From assembly GCF_014196805.1 (NCBI RefSeq), contig NZ_JACIEI010000015.1, positions 1 to 64,000 on the forward strand: a stretch of 64,000 nt of DNA, read 5' to 3'. Numbering within the stretch: position 1 is the first letter of the stretch; every line of letters starts with the position of its first letter. The stretch is from Sulfitobacter undariae (GTDB lineage: Bacteria; Pseudomonadota; Alphaproteobacteria; Rhodobacterales; Rhodobacteraceae). Below are positions 765 to 44,484 of this stretch, piece after piece. The notes under the pieces are model-generated. The model was given only the letters and a program-made list of their open reading frames with translations. It had not been told where the DNA came from and did no database searches. A program made the position numbers and the translations under genes.

Positions 765-1120
765 AAATAAATACTTATGAAGGCCATAAGATTGCCCATC
801 CAAAAATATTGTTCAATTGTGTAACTCTATAAGCATTTCCTGTTCGGGAAAAAGCCTCATAGATGGCATCGTTAGGGCTTTGTTGCACAAATCAGTTGAT
901 GGGATTCACTGTATGAATCCGGTGTGGTAGCTGGAGAGAATGAGCAGCTGGACACCGACGACTTACAAGACCAAGAACTGGTCAGACTACAACTAAGCCC
1001 TGAAGCAGCGCGGTTCGCTATCGATCTGGTTTGACGCGGAAATGGTGTGGGATGCGACACCATCTGGCCAGAGGGGACGTCAGCAGGCCTACAGTGATGC
1101 GGTGATACAAGCCTGCCTGA

Positions 1121-1161
1121 CCACTGCCCGGCAGGGCATTGCAAAGCAATGTCCCGAGAGG
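1121..1161 (+). repeat. Hairpin insertion element, copy 1 (41 bp)
   Basis: The element runs from CCACTGCCCGGCAGGG to TCCCGAGAGG. Its centre forms a hairpin, GGG-c-ATTGC-aaa-GCAAT-gt-CCC. It lies between the codons for conserved CLT and LKVLFG of the transposase and shifts the frame. The reverse complement of 1776-1816 matches it over the full length: CCACTG, GGCAGGG and TCCCGAGAGG are shared, while stem and loop sequences differ but still pair. Confidence 0.8.
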
Positions 1162-1775
1162 GGCTCAAGGTTCTGTTTGGATTGCCCTTGAGGCAGACTA
1201 CGGGGTTTGTCGGAAGTCTGCTGGAATTGGCCGGGCTGAACTGGACAGTGCCAAACTTCAGCACTTTGTGTCGACGGCAGAGAACGTTATCGGTCGCGAT
1301 CCCATTCCGGGGCTCATCGGGGCCCTTGCACCTTCTGATAGATAGCACAGGCATCAAGGCGGAGGGCGAAGGTGAATGGAACGCCCGTAAACATGGCGGC
1401 CCTAAACGTCGCCTTTGGCGCAAAATCCACATCGGGATCGATGAGGAAACACTAGAGGTACGTGCCGTCGAGGTCACGAGTAGCAGCATCGGTGATGCCC
1501 CTATGTTACCTGACTTACTCGATCAGATCCCACCGGACGAAGAGATTGGCAGTGTCACTGGAGATGGGGCCTACGACACCCGCAAATGCCACGATGCGAT
1601 TGCAGCCCGCAATGCCTATGCTGTCATTCCACCGCGCAAGAATGCGAAGTTATGGAAATCTGACACACCCGGAGCCAGGGCACGAAACGAAGCAGTTCGA
1701 TCCTCAAAGTACCTTGGCCGCTCACTGTGGCGGCAAGTCACCGGATACCACCGCCGAAGCCGCGTCGAAACCAAA

Positions 1776-1816
1776 CCTCTCGGGATCATGCTGCGCATAA
1801 CCCTGCCAGTCAGTGG
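1776..1816 (-). repeat. Hairpin insertion element, copy 2 (41 bp, inverted relative to copy 1)
   Basis: Read on the minus strand this runs from CCACTGACTGGCAGGG to TCCCGAGAGG with the central hairpin GGG-tt-ATGC-gca-GCAT-ga-TCCC. It interrupts the transposase between VETK and MHCLKLLG, two blocks that are adjacent in the intact family. The stem differs from that of copy 1 at several paired positions yet remains complementary. Confidence 0.8.
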
Positions 1817-2088: not shown

Positions 2089-4332
2089 TTAAGCTAAAGC
2101 TTGAAAATGCTCAAATGCAGCTCGTTTCCTTACGTTGCTCGGCAGGACTAGAGAATGTTCTGCCACAATGGTGTGCAAGCCTTTTGCTGCCTCGCGGAGA
2201 GCATCAGTTGAACAACCGACTTGCCTTTCAAAACTGAAGACCGGTTTTTCGTGATCTGGATCTTGAATTATGATTGTGGCGGCTTCTGAGGTATCGGTCA
2301 GAGTGATATTGACTTGTAACGAACTCATTTGGGCAAGATTGCAGCCCAGGACAGTTGGGAACCCGTATCCAATCCTATTTCCGATTTCCAACTTAAAATC
2401 AGCAAGATCCACTGCTTTTTTGAGGTCTTTGGTTTTGTGCGCCGTGTAGTGGATGTTAAGGATACTTCCGTGACTGTGACCAGCTATTGCCTACCGTTGA
2501 CCATCTTGGACATCAGCCTCGCGTAGCATGCTCGAGAATGTTTTTCGAAGCGCGTAGAAATCTTCATTAAAAGCTCTGAGATCGAGTTTTTCGAGAATGC
2601 GAACAAAATGCTTTCCAAAGGCACTTGATGCAGCATTCACCTCTGACCGACACGCGGCCTCTGGAAATAGCAGCGGTCCGTGCTCGTCCGTGAGGCTTTG
2701 AAACCATTGCATAAAGCCGAGATCTAGCAATATTTGCGGCAGGGGGATCACCCTCTGGCTGTCCTCTGTTTTGATCGATTGCTCGGGCGCTGTTCCTATG
2801 GCTAAACAATAGGTTCCGTTGCGATATCTCACATCTTTGCGTCTAAGTAGTGTGATTTCTTCGATACGCGTGCCCAGTGATAAAACGATGAGGGGAATCC
2901 AGTAGGTCGCGTCGCGGATGATGACACTCCCGGGTTTCCAGCGGCGGTGTTTGGATGCGCATCCTGTGTAAATTGGGGAGGTTAAAAATTTAGCAAGCCG
3001 TTCTTCCGACCATGTCACCCGGATTTTGGGCTTGGTTACTCGGACATAAAGCGCATCATTTGGAATGTTGGCTTTAATCACATTTTCTATAATTTTATAG
3101 GGGAGCGCGACTGGCGGCTCGATGCCCAGATCACCCGCACCTTTGAAAATGCGGTTCAGGCTATCTCTGAGCTTTCTGATGTTGGCTATTGTCACCCGAG
3201 GTGTGAGCTCTTCGGCTAACAAGGATCTTTTTTCAGGGGTGGAAATGTCATTGCGGCCCCTAATCCTTTCTGTGACTGCAAAATCATGTGCGTCGGCTTC
3301 GGAAATCTCAAAGTTCTTGGTGATTACCTTGGCGTGAGAGTTATAGCGGTTCTTGCCGTGTGACTTTCCGTGCTTTCGAGGCAGCCGCGAGAGCCATACA
3401 AAGAACTCTATCTGTCTTTCTTTGTGGATTGAAGCGACTGGGACATCTCCGAAGAATTCTGTCGCGAGCCTGCCAATGCCATTGATGTTCGGCCTCATTG
3501 AAACTGTTGGGTAGTTCTTCAGTGTTTGTTCCCAGGCGTGCGATATCAGGACAGGTGCTTTTACGAATTCTTCAAGGGGTGTGGACCCGTGCTCTTCGAG
3601 CATGCCTTTTGTCGCCTGGTTGATATCGTCGCCGTCCAACACAGCCATCTCGACTTCATTAAGTCGGCGTTTGAGGGAAATGGCCTGACGTCCAAGATCA
3701 CTTGTCGTGGGCTTTGGTAGGACGATTGAGGTGAGCGCACTGGCCTTTGTAAGGGGGGTCTGCACGTTATCCCACTTTCCGCGTCTTGCCTCGCGTCGTA
3801 GGGCCGCGTTCTCTGCTTCCAGAGCTTCAATTCGCGCATCCAGTTCACAGTCTTCCCAATTTGAGAAGTCTTGCTGCTTGGAAAGCAATTGACCCAATTC
3901 GTCTCTCAACATTTCCGTCAGCAGAATTCTTGCTTCGCTTGGGGACAGGGTGTTGTTTGTTATGGCATCCACGATTTTTAGTTCCTCTCTCTCGTAGACC
4001 GTAAGCAGCGCAGCTGCGCGTTTTACGGCGTCGAAAGGGAGGTCGGTGCGTAATGAGAGACGCAAAAAATGGTTGGATCCCTTTTTTGAGATTTTTCTTG
4101 GTAGTCTCTTCAGGAAATAAAAAATTTGGCCCCGCCGTATGAGGAAGGGGGCGGCAGAGTGCTTCGACCAATGCTTGAGGTATCTGTTTGTGACTGTGGG
4201 GTGTATCCCACTGTGTATCTCACCTTGAGGCAGGTGGGATACCGCTTTGGCGTGAAGTGCCGAAAAGCTCTTATTTATTGCTGATTTAGAGGAAGAATGG
4301 CTGGGGTGGTAGGATTCGAACCTACGGTACAC
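2089..4332 (-). pseudogene. Tyrosine site-specific integrase, split by an in-frame TAG
   Basis: The frame runs from 4332 to a TAG at 2493-2491 and then stays open in the same frame to 2089, about 747 codons. Catalytic landmarks: LGTRIEEI (first Arg, about residue 490), FYALRKTF (second Arg, with Tyr where His is common), then, after the stop, GHSHGS and NIHYT holding the second His and the nucleophilic Tyr. The TAG therefore removes the active-site tyrosine. The only ATG (4332) lies inside tRNA-Gln; recognisable integrase sequence starts near residue 60 (FLIRRGQIFYF), and no convincing ATG, GTG or TTG was found between, so the true start is unclear. Position against the tRNA 3' end fits an integrative element; without suppression the protein should be inactive. 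Confidence 0.85.
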
Positions 4333-35054: not shown

Positions 35055-36002
35055 ATGCGCCTTATACCAGTTGCCGGAATTCTTCTTTCACTAGCAGCAT
35101 GCGGTGACCCGCTGGCTGGTGTTGCACGTCTGGCTGATGTTGATGTTGTGGATACCAACCCTGCCGCAGTCTTGCCTGATAGGGAAGAACTGGCGCGTGA
35201 AGGTTTCATTGGGACAACTGCCGCAGAAGGTACTGTACCTACCCAAGTGGCGGCGGCACAGTCATCGGACACTTCTGCGATGGGCGGATTTTTTCGGGGT
35301 TTAGTTAAACGTGCGGCTGCTGCTGACCCTGCCGCCGCGGTCGCGGCAGATGTGGCGCAAGGCCAAGCTGAGCCAAGCACCAAGCAACCTGCCGTTGAGC
35401 CAGAGCACACGGTGCTTGCCGGATTGCCTGCAGAGCCAGAGGCACCGAAACGCAAATTTGGTCTGTTCGGCGGTGGCCGCGCAGCAAAGAAAGATGCGCC
35501 GCGTGTCGGTCCAGATGCGCTTGATGTACCGTTTGGTACGCTTTTACCCTTCGGCGAGATTGCGCGCGTGTGCGAAGCGCGTGGCAAGCCAATGGGTCAA
35601 AAGGTTGATGGCAACGGCAAGCGCGGCTTTAGCCTGTATGACAGCAACGCTGGCGGTTTGGGGAAACGTACCTATTACCTCACTGGCTTTAGCGATAATT
35701 GTCCGCGCCAGTTCACGGCAGCAAATGCGTTGCTCGGAAAACCCTCATTTTATGAGCAAATTCGTTTTGGCCCAGCGGGTGAAAACCTGCCTGTTGCCAC
35801 AACAGATGTTGCTTATGAAAAGGTCAAAAAATCGATCTGCGGCACGGGAAAGGGCAAACCCTGCGGGAGCAAGATTGAACAGTTGGACAGCAACACAGTA
35901 TTCTTGACTGCGTATGAGAACATCGCAGTGAACGGCACATGGAAAGAGTTTCTTGTCCATAACGGTACTGTGCTGGCCGCTGCCGTTAAATCAGTGAACT
36001 GA
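35055..36002 (+). CDS. Conserved hypothetical lipoprotein
   Basis: 315 residues; lipobox LSLAACGD puts a lipidated Cys at residue 17. AGGGAGG upstream is an excellent ribosome-binding site. Residues about 20-150 are low complexity (Ala, Pro, Lys rich, KRKFGLFGGGRAAKK) and look extended; the conserved-looking C-terminal domain (about 165-315) contains ICGTGKGKPCG and LYDSNAGGLGKRTYYLTGF. I know no function; such proteins are widespread in Rhodobacteraceae. It converges on slyX with 2 bp between stops. Confidence 0.8.
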   Translation: MRLIPVAGILLSLAACGDPLAGVARLADVDVVDTNPAAVLPDREELAREGFIGTTAAEGTVPTQVAAAQSSDTSAMGGFFRGLVKRAAAADPAAAVAADVAQGQAEPSTKQPAVEPEHTVLAGLPAEPEAPKRKFGLFGGGRAAKKDAPRVGPDALDVPFGTLLPFGEIARVCEARGKPMGQKVDGNGKRGFSLYDSNAGGLGKRTYYLTGFSDNCPRQFTAANALLGKPSFYEQIRFGPAGENLPVATTDVAYEKVKKSICGTGKGKPCGSKIEQLDSNTVFLTAYENIAVNGTWKEFLVHNGTVLAAAVKSVN

Positions 36003-36004
36003 TT

Positions 36005-36199
36005 TTAGTAGTGCGGCGGGCGTTCGTCACCCACGACGACTCCGCCGCCGCCAGCGGCTTCACGTTCGCCCTCACGGCGCATCAATAGCTCAACGCGGCG
36101 GGTCAGGCGGTCAATCTCATTTTGCTGGCGTACAACGACATCCGAGAGGTCGTCGACGCTGCGCAGCAAATGGGCCATTTTTTCTTCGATGTGTTCCAT
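36005..36199 (-). CDS. slyX: SlyX family protein
   Basis: 64 residues. A coiled coil fills the first half (HIEEKMAHLLRSVDDLSDVVVRQQNEIDRL) and the C-terminus ends ERPPHY, the conserved SlyX tail (PPHY). Function is unknown in general. An Arg/Glu- and Gly-rich linker (REGEREAAGGGG) precedes the tail. Confidence 0.88.
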   Translation of the reverse strand: MEHIEEKMAHLLRSVDDLSDVVVRQQNEIDRLTRRVELLMRREGEREAAGGGGVVVGDERPPHY

Positions 36200-36317
36200 G
36201 CTCTCCCTCTAGGCGGATGAGAGGCGTTACGCAATGGCTCTATGCGCCCTGAAGCTTGCCCCGCCTGCCTGCATCCGATAGAGCCGAAGCGAGATTCAAA
36301 TCCTGCAGAGGTATGTC

Positions 36318-37814
36318 ATGGCCAAGCCTAAAAAGACCCCGCGCCCAAAGGCGGAAACGCCCCGTGGTTTTCGCGATTATTTCGGCACCGAGGTGACCCA
36401 GCGCGCCGAGATGCTGGCAAAGATTGCAGGGGTTTATCATCGTTATGGTTTTGACGCGCTCGAAAGCGCTGGCGTTGAGAAGGTTGAAGCGCTGGGTAAG
36501 TTCCTGCCTGACGTGGACCGCCCCAATGAAGGCGTGTTTGCATGGCAAGAGGACGCTGAGGCAGAGAAGCCCGGTGACTGGCTGGCACTGCGCTATGATC
36601 TGACGGCGCCGTTGGCCCGTGTGTATGCGCAGCACCGCAATGAATTGCCGACGCCGTACCGCCGCTATGCGATGGGGCCTGTTTGGCGCAATGAAAAGCC
36701 CGGCCCTGGTCGCTTTCGCCAGTTTTATCAATGTGATGCTGATACGGTTGGTGCGGGTTCCGTTGTTGCCGACGCCGAGATTTGTGCGATGTTGTCGGAT
36801 TGCCTTGAGGAAGTCGGGATCGAGCGCGGTGATTACATCGTGCGCGTGAACAACCGCAAAGTGTTGAACGGTGTGCTGGAGGTTGCTGGCCTGTCGGGAG
36901 ATGACAAAGAGAACGCGCGCGGGATCGTGCTGCGTGCTATTGATAAACTGGACCGCCTTGGCGTGGACGGTGTGCGGGCGCTGCTAGGGGCAGGGCGCAA
37001 AGACGATAGCGGCGATTTCACCGACGGTGCGGGGCTGGATGATGCGGCGGCTGATGTTGTCATGGGCTTTATGGATGCCAAGCGCGACGATGGCGCGGCG
37101 ACCTGTGCGCGGTTGCGTGAATTGGTCGGCGATAGTGTTGTTGGCCTTGAAGGTGTGGCCGAGTTGGAAACCATTGCCGAATTGTTAAGCGCTGGCGGCT
37201 ACGGACCGGATCGGATCGAAATTGATCCCTCCGTTGTGCGTGGCCTTGGCTACTATACTGGCCCTGTCTACGAAGCCGAACTCACTTTTGAAATCAAAGA
37301 CGAAAAAGGCCGCCCACGCAACTTTGGTTCGGTTGCGGGCGGTGGGCGATATGACGATCTGGTCAAACGCTTTACCGGACAAGAAGTCCCTGCAACGGGC
37401 GTTTCAATCGGTGTCGACCGTCTGCTGGCTGCCCTACACGCCAAGGGGCGGATGGACACGCAAGCCGAAGGCCCTGTTGTTGTCACAGTGATGGATAAGG
37501 CGCGCATGGCCGATTATCAGGCGATGGTGGCTGAACTGCGTCAGGCGGGTATTCGTGCGGAAGTATACTTGGGAAATCCCAAGAACTTTGGCAACCAATT
37601 GAAATACGCCGATAAACGCGGCAGCCCTGTGGCCATCATTGAAGGCGATGAAGAGCATCAAAATGGCATGATACAAATCAAGGATTTGGTGCTGGGTGCG
37701 AAAATCGCAGAAAATGCGACACTGGAAGAATGGCGCGACAGGCCCAGCCAATACGAAGTGCCGCGTGCCGATCTGGTGACACGTGTCCGCGAAATACTGG
37801 AGCTGTACCGCTGA
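36318..37814 (+). CDS. hisS: Histidine-tRNA ligase
   Basis: 498 residues. Class II motifs: [11 protein letters not shown] (N-terminal), [16 protein letters not shown] (motif 2 region), [23 protein letters not shown], histidine-A motif [17 protein letters not shown] (about 305-320) and [14 protein letters not shown], then the anticodon-binding domain ([18 protein letters not shown]). Its stop overlaps the hisZ start by 1 nt (TGATG), giving an unusual hisS-hisZ-hisG arrangement in which the aaRS and its paralogue are adjacent. Confidence 0.95.
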
Positions 37815-42840: not shown

Positions 42841-43964
42841 GTGCTTAAAACAACTATCCCTTTTGCCGAAGTTCGCTTCTTTGATGAGACTCCCAGAAGG
42901 GTCGAACTGGAACAGCGATTCAGCAAGTTTTTGAATCAACTGCGCCATGCCAAAGATTCTATGGATCCTCAAAGTGGAAGCCGCATTGACACGGAGGATG
43001 GCTTTGAAGGCCTTCCATGTGCGCTGTCTCGCAAAGATAGGCTCAAAATCTCCAAACGTGCGGCTGTTTATCTGAATCGTGTGGAGGGGGCGACGGGGAT
43101 GCAGCACCTCAAGGATGACGATAGGAAGAGACTGAGTTCGCTCAGTGGTGGGGTCGTGGTGTCGCGGGTCCCAACTGAACATGATGCTGATGTACTGGCC
43201 TCCGTACTGCATGATGAAATGCCTTGGATGGCCCCTGCCACAGAACACATCTGGCACGCACTTCGGAAATCAGTCCGGGGTGATCAACCCGGATTTCAAT
43301 TTGCGCCTTTGTTGTTACTTGGCTCTCCTGGCATCGGAAAAAGTCATTGGGCGCGACGGCTGGGGGAGCTTTTGGAGGTGCCGACTACAGTAGTCGATGC
43401 GACAGGCGAGCCAGCCTCTTTTGCTCTCGTAGGGTCTCAAAGAGGCTGGAGCAACGCTGGACCTGGAAAGATCATTGAATCAATCGTAGCGGCCAAATGT
43501 GCCAATCCCATCATCGTAGTCGATGAAGTTGAGAAGGCAGGTGAAGTCTTGTCCAATAATGGATCTCGGTTCAGCTTAACTGATGCGCTGTTGCCCCTTC
43601 TTGAAAGGATGACGGCAAGCACGTGGCAGTGCCCTTACTATCGGATCAAGTGTGATATGTCTTGGGTTGGCTGGGTTTTGACAGCCAATACCTGGAAGGG
43701 TTGTCCGATGCGCTCTTGAGCCGCTGTCCTCCACTTGATCTACCGCCGATTTCGAGGGCACAGTTGGTCGCTTTTGCGCGCCGTCAGTGCCAATCGCGTG
43801 AGCTACCTGATGAGGCGGTGGATGCCATTGAAGAGATTATCTGGATGTCTCGAGGGGATATTGGTGGACCCAGTTTGCGCACAGTTAAAAGGATGATTGA
43901 CCGTGCCGAAATTACTGTCGGGAGACCTGTGCTTCACATCAGCAAAAGGACGCCCCTTTGCTGA
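42841..43964 (+). pseudogene. AAA-family ATPase (Lon ATPase-like), single-base frameshift
   Basis: From GTG 42841 (AAAGGA 8 nt upstream) the frame gives 292 residues: Walker A LLLLGSPGIGKSHWARR (about 157-173) and Walker B PIIVVDEVEKAGEV (about 222-235). It then runs out at 43719 after LTANTWKGCPMRS. Shifting at about 43692 (AATACCTGGAAGGG) restores LEGLSDALLSRCPPLDLPPISRAQL through 43964, exactly the sensor/arginine-finger region that should follow LTANT. A lost C in ACC(C)TGG explains it. Intact length would be about 374 residues with no protease domain. Probably inactive unless slippage or a sequencing error is involved. Confidence 0.85.
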
Positions 43965-44484
43965 TGTGATTTCAACAAATGATGATGTGTAAAACTCTAC
44001 TGCTTTCGGCCGATGTATGGCCGTTAACGGTAGTATCAACACGGCTCAAATATTGAGGTGGTAATTATGACATGTAGGGCGGAAACTGGACCTTAGCTGC
44101 ATCTGCGAAGGTTCTGTGCCAGAACTGCAAAGGTGGCCATTCAAGCCGTAGCAGGCCAAAGCCGCCATGCTGCGCTGCACGCCAAGGTCGGCTATGCGCA
44201 GATAGCGACCTTTGCAAAGTCACGCGAACGGCCCAGACTGGACCTTGGTGGCCTGAGCAGCTAGCGGCAGGAATGAGCCCACTTTGACCAATGCTGCGCG
44301 TTGCACGAATGTCCGTTACCGTCGGCTCTCCCAAAACCTTCAACAACCATTTGGGTTTTGAACTGAGTTTTTGGCGGCGTAAAACGAGGCTGCTTTGGAG
44401 TGTTTCAAAAAGGAGCGTTCTTGGCACAGGTGCTATAAATAACACCTGTAAGTCAGACAAGGACTCTTCCTTCACGTGCAACCC
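43965..44484. other. 520-bp interval without a credible gene
   Basis: One minus-strand frame of 138 residues covers most of it but has no recognisable domain and looks like translated non-coding DNA. Stretches such as GGCGGCAATGA-like and GTCGGCTATGCGCAGATAGCG resemble degenerate intergenic sequences I remember from many roseobacters. No RNA gene or promoter could be assigned. Confidence 0.5.

Follow-up and report, generated by a model that had tools for sequence, protein, structure and literature searches.

Why should one transposase gene be interrupted twice, in opposite orientations, by a 41-bp stretch that can fold into a hairpin? This question is raised by an IS5/IS903-type insertion sequence (IS) of Sulfitobacter undariae (RefSeq assembly GCF_014196805.1), which lies in the window, that is, the whole 64,000-nt stretch analysed here (contig NZ_JACIEI010000015.1, positions 1 to 64,000). 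An earlier reading of the letters alone, hereafter the original prediction, had proposed that the two stretches are copies of a tiny repeat that is maintained because of its structure and moves independently of the IS. Our analysis supports this view. We found that both stretches, called units in the following, are insertions, and our best explanation, to which we assign a probability of roughly 0.6, is that they belong to a Rhodobacteraceae family of non-autonomous mobile hairpin elements that are nested in ISs and moved in trans.

Results

Unit 1 occupies positions 1122-1162 of the forward strand and unit 2 positions 1775-1815 of the reverse strand. Both have the foot CACTG. In unit 1 the hairpin extends to the 3' end, and unit 2 represents a second subtype, whose outer stem reads ACT/GGT in place of the CCC/GGG found elsewhere. 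The covariance model described below matches at 1121-1163 (E 1.8e-13) and 1774-1816 (E 3.5e-12), and the borders were obtained from empty-site joins with loci L018 (unit 1) and L058 (unit 2). The original prediction had set them at 1121-1161 and 1776-1816; its length of 41 bp was right, whereas each position was off by one base. With the corrected coordinates, the joined flanks of both units equal the empty relatives base for base at the junctions. The likeness of the two stretches is real: they share 31 of 41 letters at the predicted borders (30 of 41 at the corrected ones), against 24 of 41 for the next best 41-mer in the window.

Transposase relatives from 80 loci of named genomes were compared by blastn. 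Some of them, such as L017 (80% identity) and L018, align end to end and carry neither stretch. Hence, the 82 bp are extra, as had been suspected, and the stretches are not normal coding sequence in the relatives. In addition, locus L016 from Sulfitobacter litoralis harbours unit 2 at the identical site without unit 1. Altogether, both 41-bp stretches are clean insertions in the IS5/IS903-type transposase. Because the L018 and L058 joins give 41 bp for each insertion, the transposase frame is shifted by two each time, in agreement with the original prediction.

To describe the family, 243 model matches (168 + 75) were considered, and 225 of them, from loci of about 70 genomes, were aligned, leaving out the 18 weakest of the first set. 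Removal of copies with similar flanks, or with flanks shorter than 150 bases, left 116 distinct copies. These share a common plan, consisting of a 5-nt foot C[A/G][C/T]TG, CCC, GGCA, an inner stem with its loop, GAGA, and GGG. The foot, at positions 2-6, shows C in 107 copies, A in 89 or G in 16, C in 69 or T in 45, T in 110, and G in 109. The internal loop is also well conserved, with GGCA in 90 and GAGA in 104 of the 116 copies. The hairpin is flush with the 3' end of the unit and comprises an outer stem of 3 bp and an inner stem of 9 bp; in the RNA fold of unit 1, the three-pair outer stem reaches as far as the final base. The longer subtypes have a nine-pair inner stem, a three-base loop, and an unpaired T on the 3' side.

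The differing but still complementary centres that had been pointed out in the window proved to be a trait of the whole element family. The pairing claimed for the central stem also held, with two-sided changes in all nine pairs of the inner stem. Its extent, in contrast, had been drawn too narrowly, as conserved pairing is also present outside, in the outer CCC/GGG stem beyond the GGCA/GAGA internal loop. Outer pair 9-40 is C-G in 108 and T-A in 4 of 115 sequences, and pair 7-42 is C-G in 100, A-T in 4, and unpaired in 10 of 115. Over the full structure, two-sided changes affect 12 of 12 pairs and 96.3% of 1492 cells pair, versus 79.7% in shuffles; these exact figures flatter the structure, because the alignment was fitted to a model with the structure named beforehand and the pair counts are sequences, not events. 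When the partners are slid by 1-3 columns, pairing falls to 25-57%, and this contrast does not rest on that fitting alone. Our results thus show that pairing in the unit is maintained by compensatory changes.

The element is widespread in Rhodobacteraceae, a family of mainly marine bacteria. A blastn search of the region against its own genome returned short matches elsewhere that were confined to the two stretches. Covariance model R1, built from 12 copies, detected 19 matches in the S. undariae genome at E<=0.001 and 23 at E<=1; an exact pattern gave nine matches and its reversed control none. A permissive regular-expression scan (544 places) was too loose and was abandoned in favour of the model. 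Within the genus, 50 of 58 genomes contain a match, with 0-35 matches per genome. Across the family Rhodobacteraceae, matches were present in at least 146 of 394 genomes, over 145 of 393 genera, the count being a lower bound owing to strict filters. The ten positive genomes of a phylum sample (10/299) all belong to this same family, and other families of the class, represented by 40 genomes, gave no model match. The further copies expected of a mobile element therefore exist in number.

Among plasmids, 110 records contain the element, at 246 places altogether. The genera shown, for example Sulfitobacter, Phaeobacter, Leisingera, and Dinoroseobacter, are roseobacters, and at least 24 of 60 among the matches listed coincide with no annotated feature. 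In phages there were only two partial matches, none of them covering 80%. Nine IMG/VR contigs carry the exact arm pattern, eight of which fold into the hairpin. Rfam assigned no family to any unit in nine unit-holding loci; in these same loci it reported one tRNA, together with two matches that stayed under the gathering score (L167, L175), all away from the units. Open-access literature, searched also with the 13- to 16-letter words of the element itself, yielded no description of it, subscription papers and preprints being outside this search.

Empty-site relatives of the joined flanks were recovered for 83 of the 116 distinct copies. At the junction, 62 of these 83 have a gap balance of 0; 47 of the 83 show a net insertion of 41 nt (range 37-43), and no target duplication is seen at the empty sites. 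A target profile derived from 61 ungapped empty sites shows C/T at -4 (81%), A/G at -3 (84%), T at -2 (64%, and never G), and C at -1 (74%), with merely a weak G (48%) 3' of the insertion point. Moreover, YRTC directly precedes 49 of the 116 filled sites, compared with 1.8% of flank positions. Insertion is thus clean and takes place directly 3' of a YRTC-like motif, with a target signal on the 5' side only.

Units lie mostly in or beside ISs of many families and in either orientation. With a small transposase protein set, a match was found within 600 bp of 86 of the 116 copies, and 56 of the 116 are flanked by the same IS family on both sides. At random control points, drawn from the window and five plasmid stretches, a transposase match was present in 83 of 600, 42 of these in one IS-rich stretch. 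In the S. undariae genome, a transposase match flanks each of the 19 copies, on both sides in 14 of them. From the 30 copies without a match, 21 from 16 loci were taken on, and 30 frames were scanned with Pfam. IS-type domains were detected near the unit in ten of these 16 loci (IS21, IS66, IS110, IS256, IS91, IS1380, IS630, and IS481/IS3 types); the other six contained a phage integrase with a methylase, EAL/GGDEF, a solute-binding protein, or nothing. Repeats of 355 bp that have inverted ends harbour some of the copies (L162, L167, L170). Relative to the transposase, 39 units have the same and 47 the opposite orientation. As for coding context, an open frame with 50 codons to either side surrounds 26 of 96 copies, in some cases in antisense.

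Comparison of IS copies argues for mobility apart from the IS. Besides the many unrelated IS families that host the element, genome G002 has five copies of one IS481 element (L331-L335) with 2, 2, 1, 0, and 0 units; these copies are mosaics of each other. Similarly, an IS3 of genome G013 contains a unit (L268, position 1696) that is missing from the 99%-identical IS3 of Sulfitobacter pontiacus W028 (L372). Presence and absence between near-identical ISs indicate that the insertion, or a precise loss, is recent. Loaded carriers also multiply. In each of the seven near-identical IS3-family copies of genome G047, OrfB contains a unit, inserted in frame with a net gain of 42. In genome G171, an IS3 that carries as many as five units and is also damaged in other ways recurs at four places, with 98-99% identity. 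These data indicate that carriers spread with their cargo, damaged carriers included, which is most simply explained by a transposase supplied in trans.

Several features of these IS3 carriers were recorded on their own account. In G047 (L156, 1487-2801), the unit lies just before the catalytic-glutamate region of OrfB, and another unit subtype is found at the same OrfB site in genome G012 (L227). Locus L372 contains two identical IS3 copies (35650-36778 and 42905-44033), annotated with an intact transposase, that have a unit at the OrfA/OrfB junction; it lies just 3' of an A-rich slippery site, and the frame is not kept. Near the end of OrfA, the G171 IS3 copies contain a second inserted palindrome, GAAAACAGTCC-GGACTGTTTTC (L353, about 2071-2095; L292, L354, and L355). 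It occurs in four of the loci examined and nowhere in the window, and is possibly a second hairpin family. Between model matches in L003 (about 2180-2225), the same IS3 transposase is broken up, as read by eye, by a hairpin stretch of 35 to 40 bp, CCATTGTCC...GGACCAATGG, which may be a divergent or an unrelated insertion.

Discussion

In this study, we asked what the two hairpin stretches in an IS5/IS903-type transposase are. The family to which they belong is best read as very small, structured, non-autonomous mobile elements that are REP-like in shape and here nested in ISs. The foot and outer stem, the YRTC target, the absence of target duplication, and the REP-like shape go beyond the original prediction. 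Few mobile elements are so small, and in this case body plan, precise ends, and target can all be read, along with many empty sites, which makes the search for the mobiliser concrete. The units also explain many broken IS genes in roseobacter genomes that are annotated as pseudogenes or left blank.

Since a 41-bp unit leaves no room for an enzyme gene, we infer that it is moved in trans. Movement might involve single-stranded DNA, with an HUH/Y1-type enzyme that would read the hairpin and join the element 3' of a short target. Four features together most resemble single-strand (HUH/Y1-type) transposition, which we tentatively regard as the most likely class of mechanism: a target motif present on the 5' side alone, insertion that leaves no duplication, the combination of foot and hairpin, and the unpaired T in the stem of the longer subtypes. 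The excess in ISs might then arise because IS transposition intermediates are accessible, damage at such sites is tolerated, and units spread with their carriers. If the excess reflects targeting, the element would be a parasite of bacterial transposons. A family-wide IS hyperparasite of this sort, that is, a 41-nt element that seeks ISs (perhaps their single-stranded or circular intermediates), inserts 3' of YRTC, and rides and breaks them, is a possibility that we hold to be rather doubtful.

IS200/IS605 elements have one hairpin near each end, move without target duplication, and use a target motif 5' of the element. The units resemble them and their non-autonomous derivatives in the absence of target duplication, in the 5'-only target motif, and in a hairpin with an unpaired T. 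They differ in being 41 bp long with one hairpin, and no Y1 gene with unit ends was found among 14 distinct Y1/RAYT loci of the genus. An unpaired T (T17) is described for the IS608 hairpin in PMC8266576.

Repetitive extragenic palindromic (REP) sequences and REPINs, associated with REP-associated tyrosine transposases (RAYT/TnpA(REP)), are a second point of reference. According to PMC8266576 and PMC3116915, REPs consist of a foot and an imperfect hairpin, contain no gene, and are thought to be moved in trans. The units share this plan, including the short foot, the compensatory changes, and a conserved mismatch or bulge, here the GGCA/GAGA internal loop. Unlike REPs, whose foot is GTAG (or CGTC), they have the foot C[A/G][C/T]TG. 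Moreover, REPs are extragenic and flank RAYT genes, whereas the units lie inside IS genes, are absent beside the RAYTs tested, and show no positive link with RAYT presence.

Other small repeats are more distant. Cyanobacterial small dispersed repeats are very small, hairpin-forming, and possibly mobile. Such repeats are named in PMC3116915, and very small hairpin-forming elements, possibly mobile, have been described in sponge mitochondria (PMC2800124). Both are tiny and hairpin-forming like the units, but have other sequences, hosts, and sites, and no shared foot or target has been shown. Rickettsia palindromic elements (RPEs), covered in PMC10969869, are palindromic repeats that, like the units, are inserted inside genes; unlike them, an RPE is in frame and adds a peptide, whereas the 41-bp units usually shift the frame and sit in ISs. 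Miniature inverted-repeat transposable elements (MITEs) are likewise small, non-autonomous, and multi-copy, but the units lack terminal inverted repeats and target duplication, and PMC10969869 describes MITEs as mostly intergenic.

Several observations weigh against our best explanation, in addition to the fitted alignment mentioned above. No mobilising gene was found among the Y1, RAYT, and reverse transcriptase candidates of the genus. Among the 58 genus genomes, only 15 have a Y1_Tnp match over the cut-off, as do 7 of the 16 genomes that contain at least ten copies. Genomes with Y1_Tnp do have more copies (mean 10.7 versus 5.4, p=0.016), a weakly positive association that ignores kinship and IS load. 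Clear RAYTs (E<=1e-30) occur in 36 of 58 genus genomes, or 39 at any accepted E, and genomes with a clear RAYT tend to have fewer units (mean 5.1 versus 9.5, p=0.055). No unit lies beside the 14 distinct Y1/RAYT loci, where a single match reached E 2.5 only; eight of these loci (not all eight RAYTs) had no model match at all. Hence, neither a resident Y1 transposase nor a RAYT is supported as the mobiliser.

The element itself raises further difficulties for this account. It has one hairpin only, spanning the whole unit, and a split-arm search of the 1.8 Mb examined revealed no longer, gene-bearing version; the 68 'orphan' left arms that it returned were in many cases the palindromic arm read backwards or unrelated matches. 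The shorter subtypes, with a seven-pair stem and a four-base loop, lack the unpaired T. When folded as single-stranded DNA, unit 1 outperforms its shuffles (z -2.5), unlike unit 2 (z 0.37). Finally, some transposase matches in the S. undariae genome are weak, and one of the 14 copies matched on both sides has different IS families on its two sides.

The main rival, which we consider unlikely, needs no dedicated enzyme: IS transposition or repair would copy the hairpin between ISs by template switching or gene conversion. This would explain the strong link with ISs (86 of 116 copies overall, 19 of 19 in the S. undariae genome), and the mosaic IS481 copies of G002 fit it. However, donor and target sites share no flanking homology, and the sharpness and sequence specificity with which units enter unrelated IS families just 3' of YRTC argue for an enzyme with a target of its own. 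A REP/RAYT-type system, in which a RAYT, still resident or lost not long ago, would move the units as REP-like sequences, is improbable. The foot and imperfect hairpin follow the REP plan as given in the sources cited above, and 39 of 58 genus genomes have a RAYT match (NF047646, E 8e-56), but the unit foot is not GTAG and the RAYTs of L388 and L389 are flanked by GTAG repeats of another sequence. In addition, no unit lies beside the RAYT loci tested, and a clear RAYT is absent from 9 of 16 copy-rich genomes and present in 6 of 8 genomes without units.

An RNA route, by which a reverse-transcribed or intron-like element would insert by target pairing 5' of the site, is quite improbable. It would suit the 5'-only target signal and the closed outer stem in the RNA fold of unit 1, but no target-pairing stretch was seen by eye, and reverse transcriptase domains, which pass the cut-off in 22 of the 58 genomes of the genus, show no association with copy number (p=0.24), so that this enzyme is not supported as the mobiliser either. 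We also weighed, as very improbable, a bypass or splicing element that is skipped in expression and leaves host transposases working. Loci L173 and L174 have two frame-shifting units in common, and most of their differences fall at third positions of codons in the skipped frame; G047 has its seven near-identical copies with the unit inside OrfB. Nevertheless, the five IS481 copies of the L173/L174 genome are mosaic and the third-position signal can stem from intact donors, for which reason we dropped it as a sign of purifying selection through the units. The G047 insertion is in frame, and since damaged IS copies also multiply, supply in trans suffices. Moreover, a translational bypass element is expected to keep one orientation to the transcript, unlike the mixed orientation of the units (39 same, 47 opposite). 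The notion that there is no element, merely chance hairpins or sequence shared with intact genes, is refuted by the relatives without the stretches, the 0/40 genomes of other families, and the covariation. Mobile hairpin elements moved in trans thus remain our preferred explanation.

The host IS and neighbouring features

The IS that hosts both units spans positions 876-2008 on the forward strand and has 18-bp inverted ends, as established by blastn against the 80 relatives, with the ends read by eye. It is surrounded by a perfect target duplication, read directly from the sequence, whose two identical 9-bp copies of CATCGTTAG lie at 867-875 (left) and 2009-2017 (right). A 226-aa frame (1149-1829) of this IS contains DDE_Tnp_1 and DDE_Tnp_1_5 domains. 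The transposase is dead. A premature TAA in its frame (994-996, forward strand), upstream of unit 1, also breaks the gene, so the two insertions are not its sole damage.

Two further observations concern neighbouring or related loci. RAYT genes followed by GTAG-tagged REPs, GTAGGGTGCGCATTCATGCGCACC, are present in L388 (1038-1528) and L389 (1030-1177), and the former has nine copies of GTAGGGTGCGCATTCATGCGCACC about 54-55 bp apart. Adjoining the host IS in the window, a 613-aa frame on the reverse strand (2491-4332) looks by eye like a tyrosine-recombinase-type integrase.
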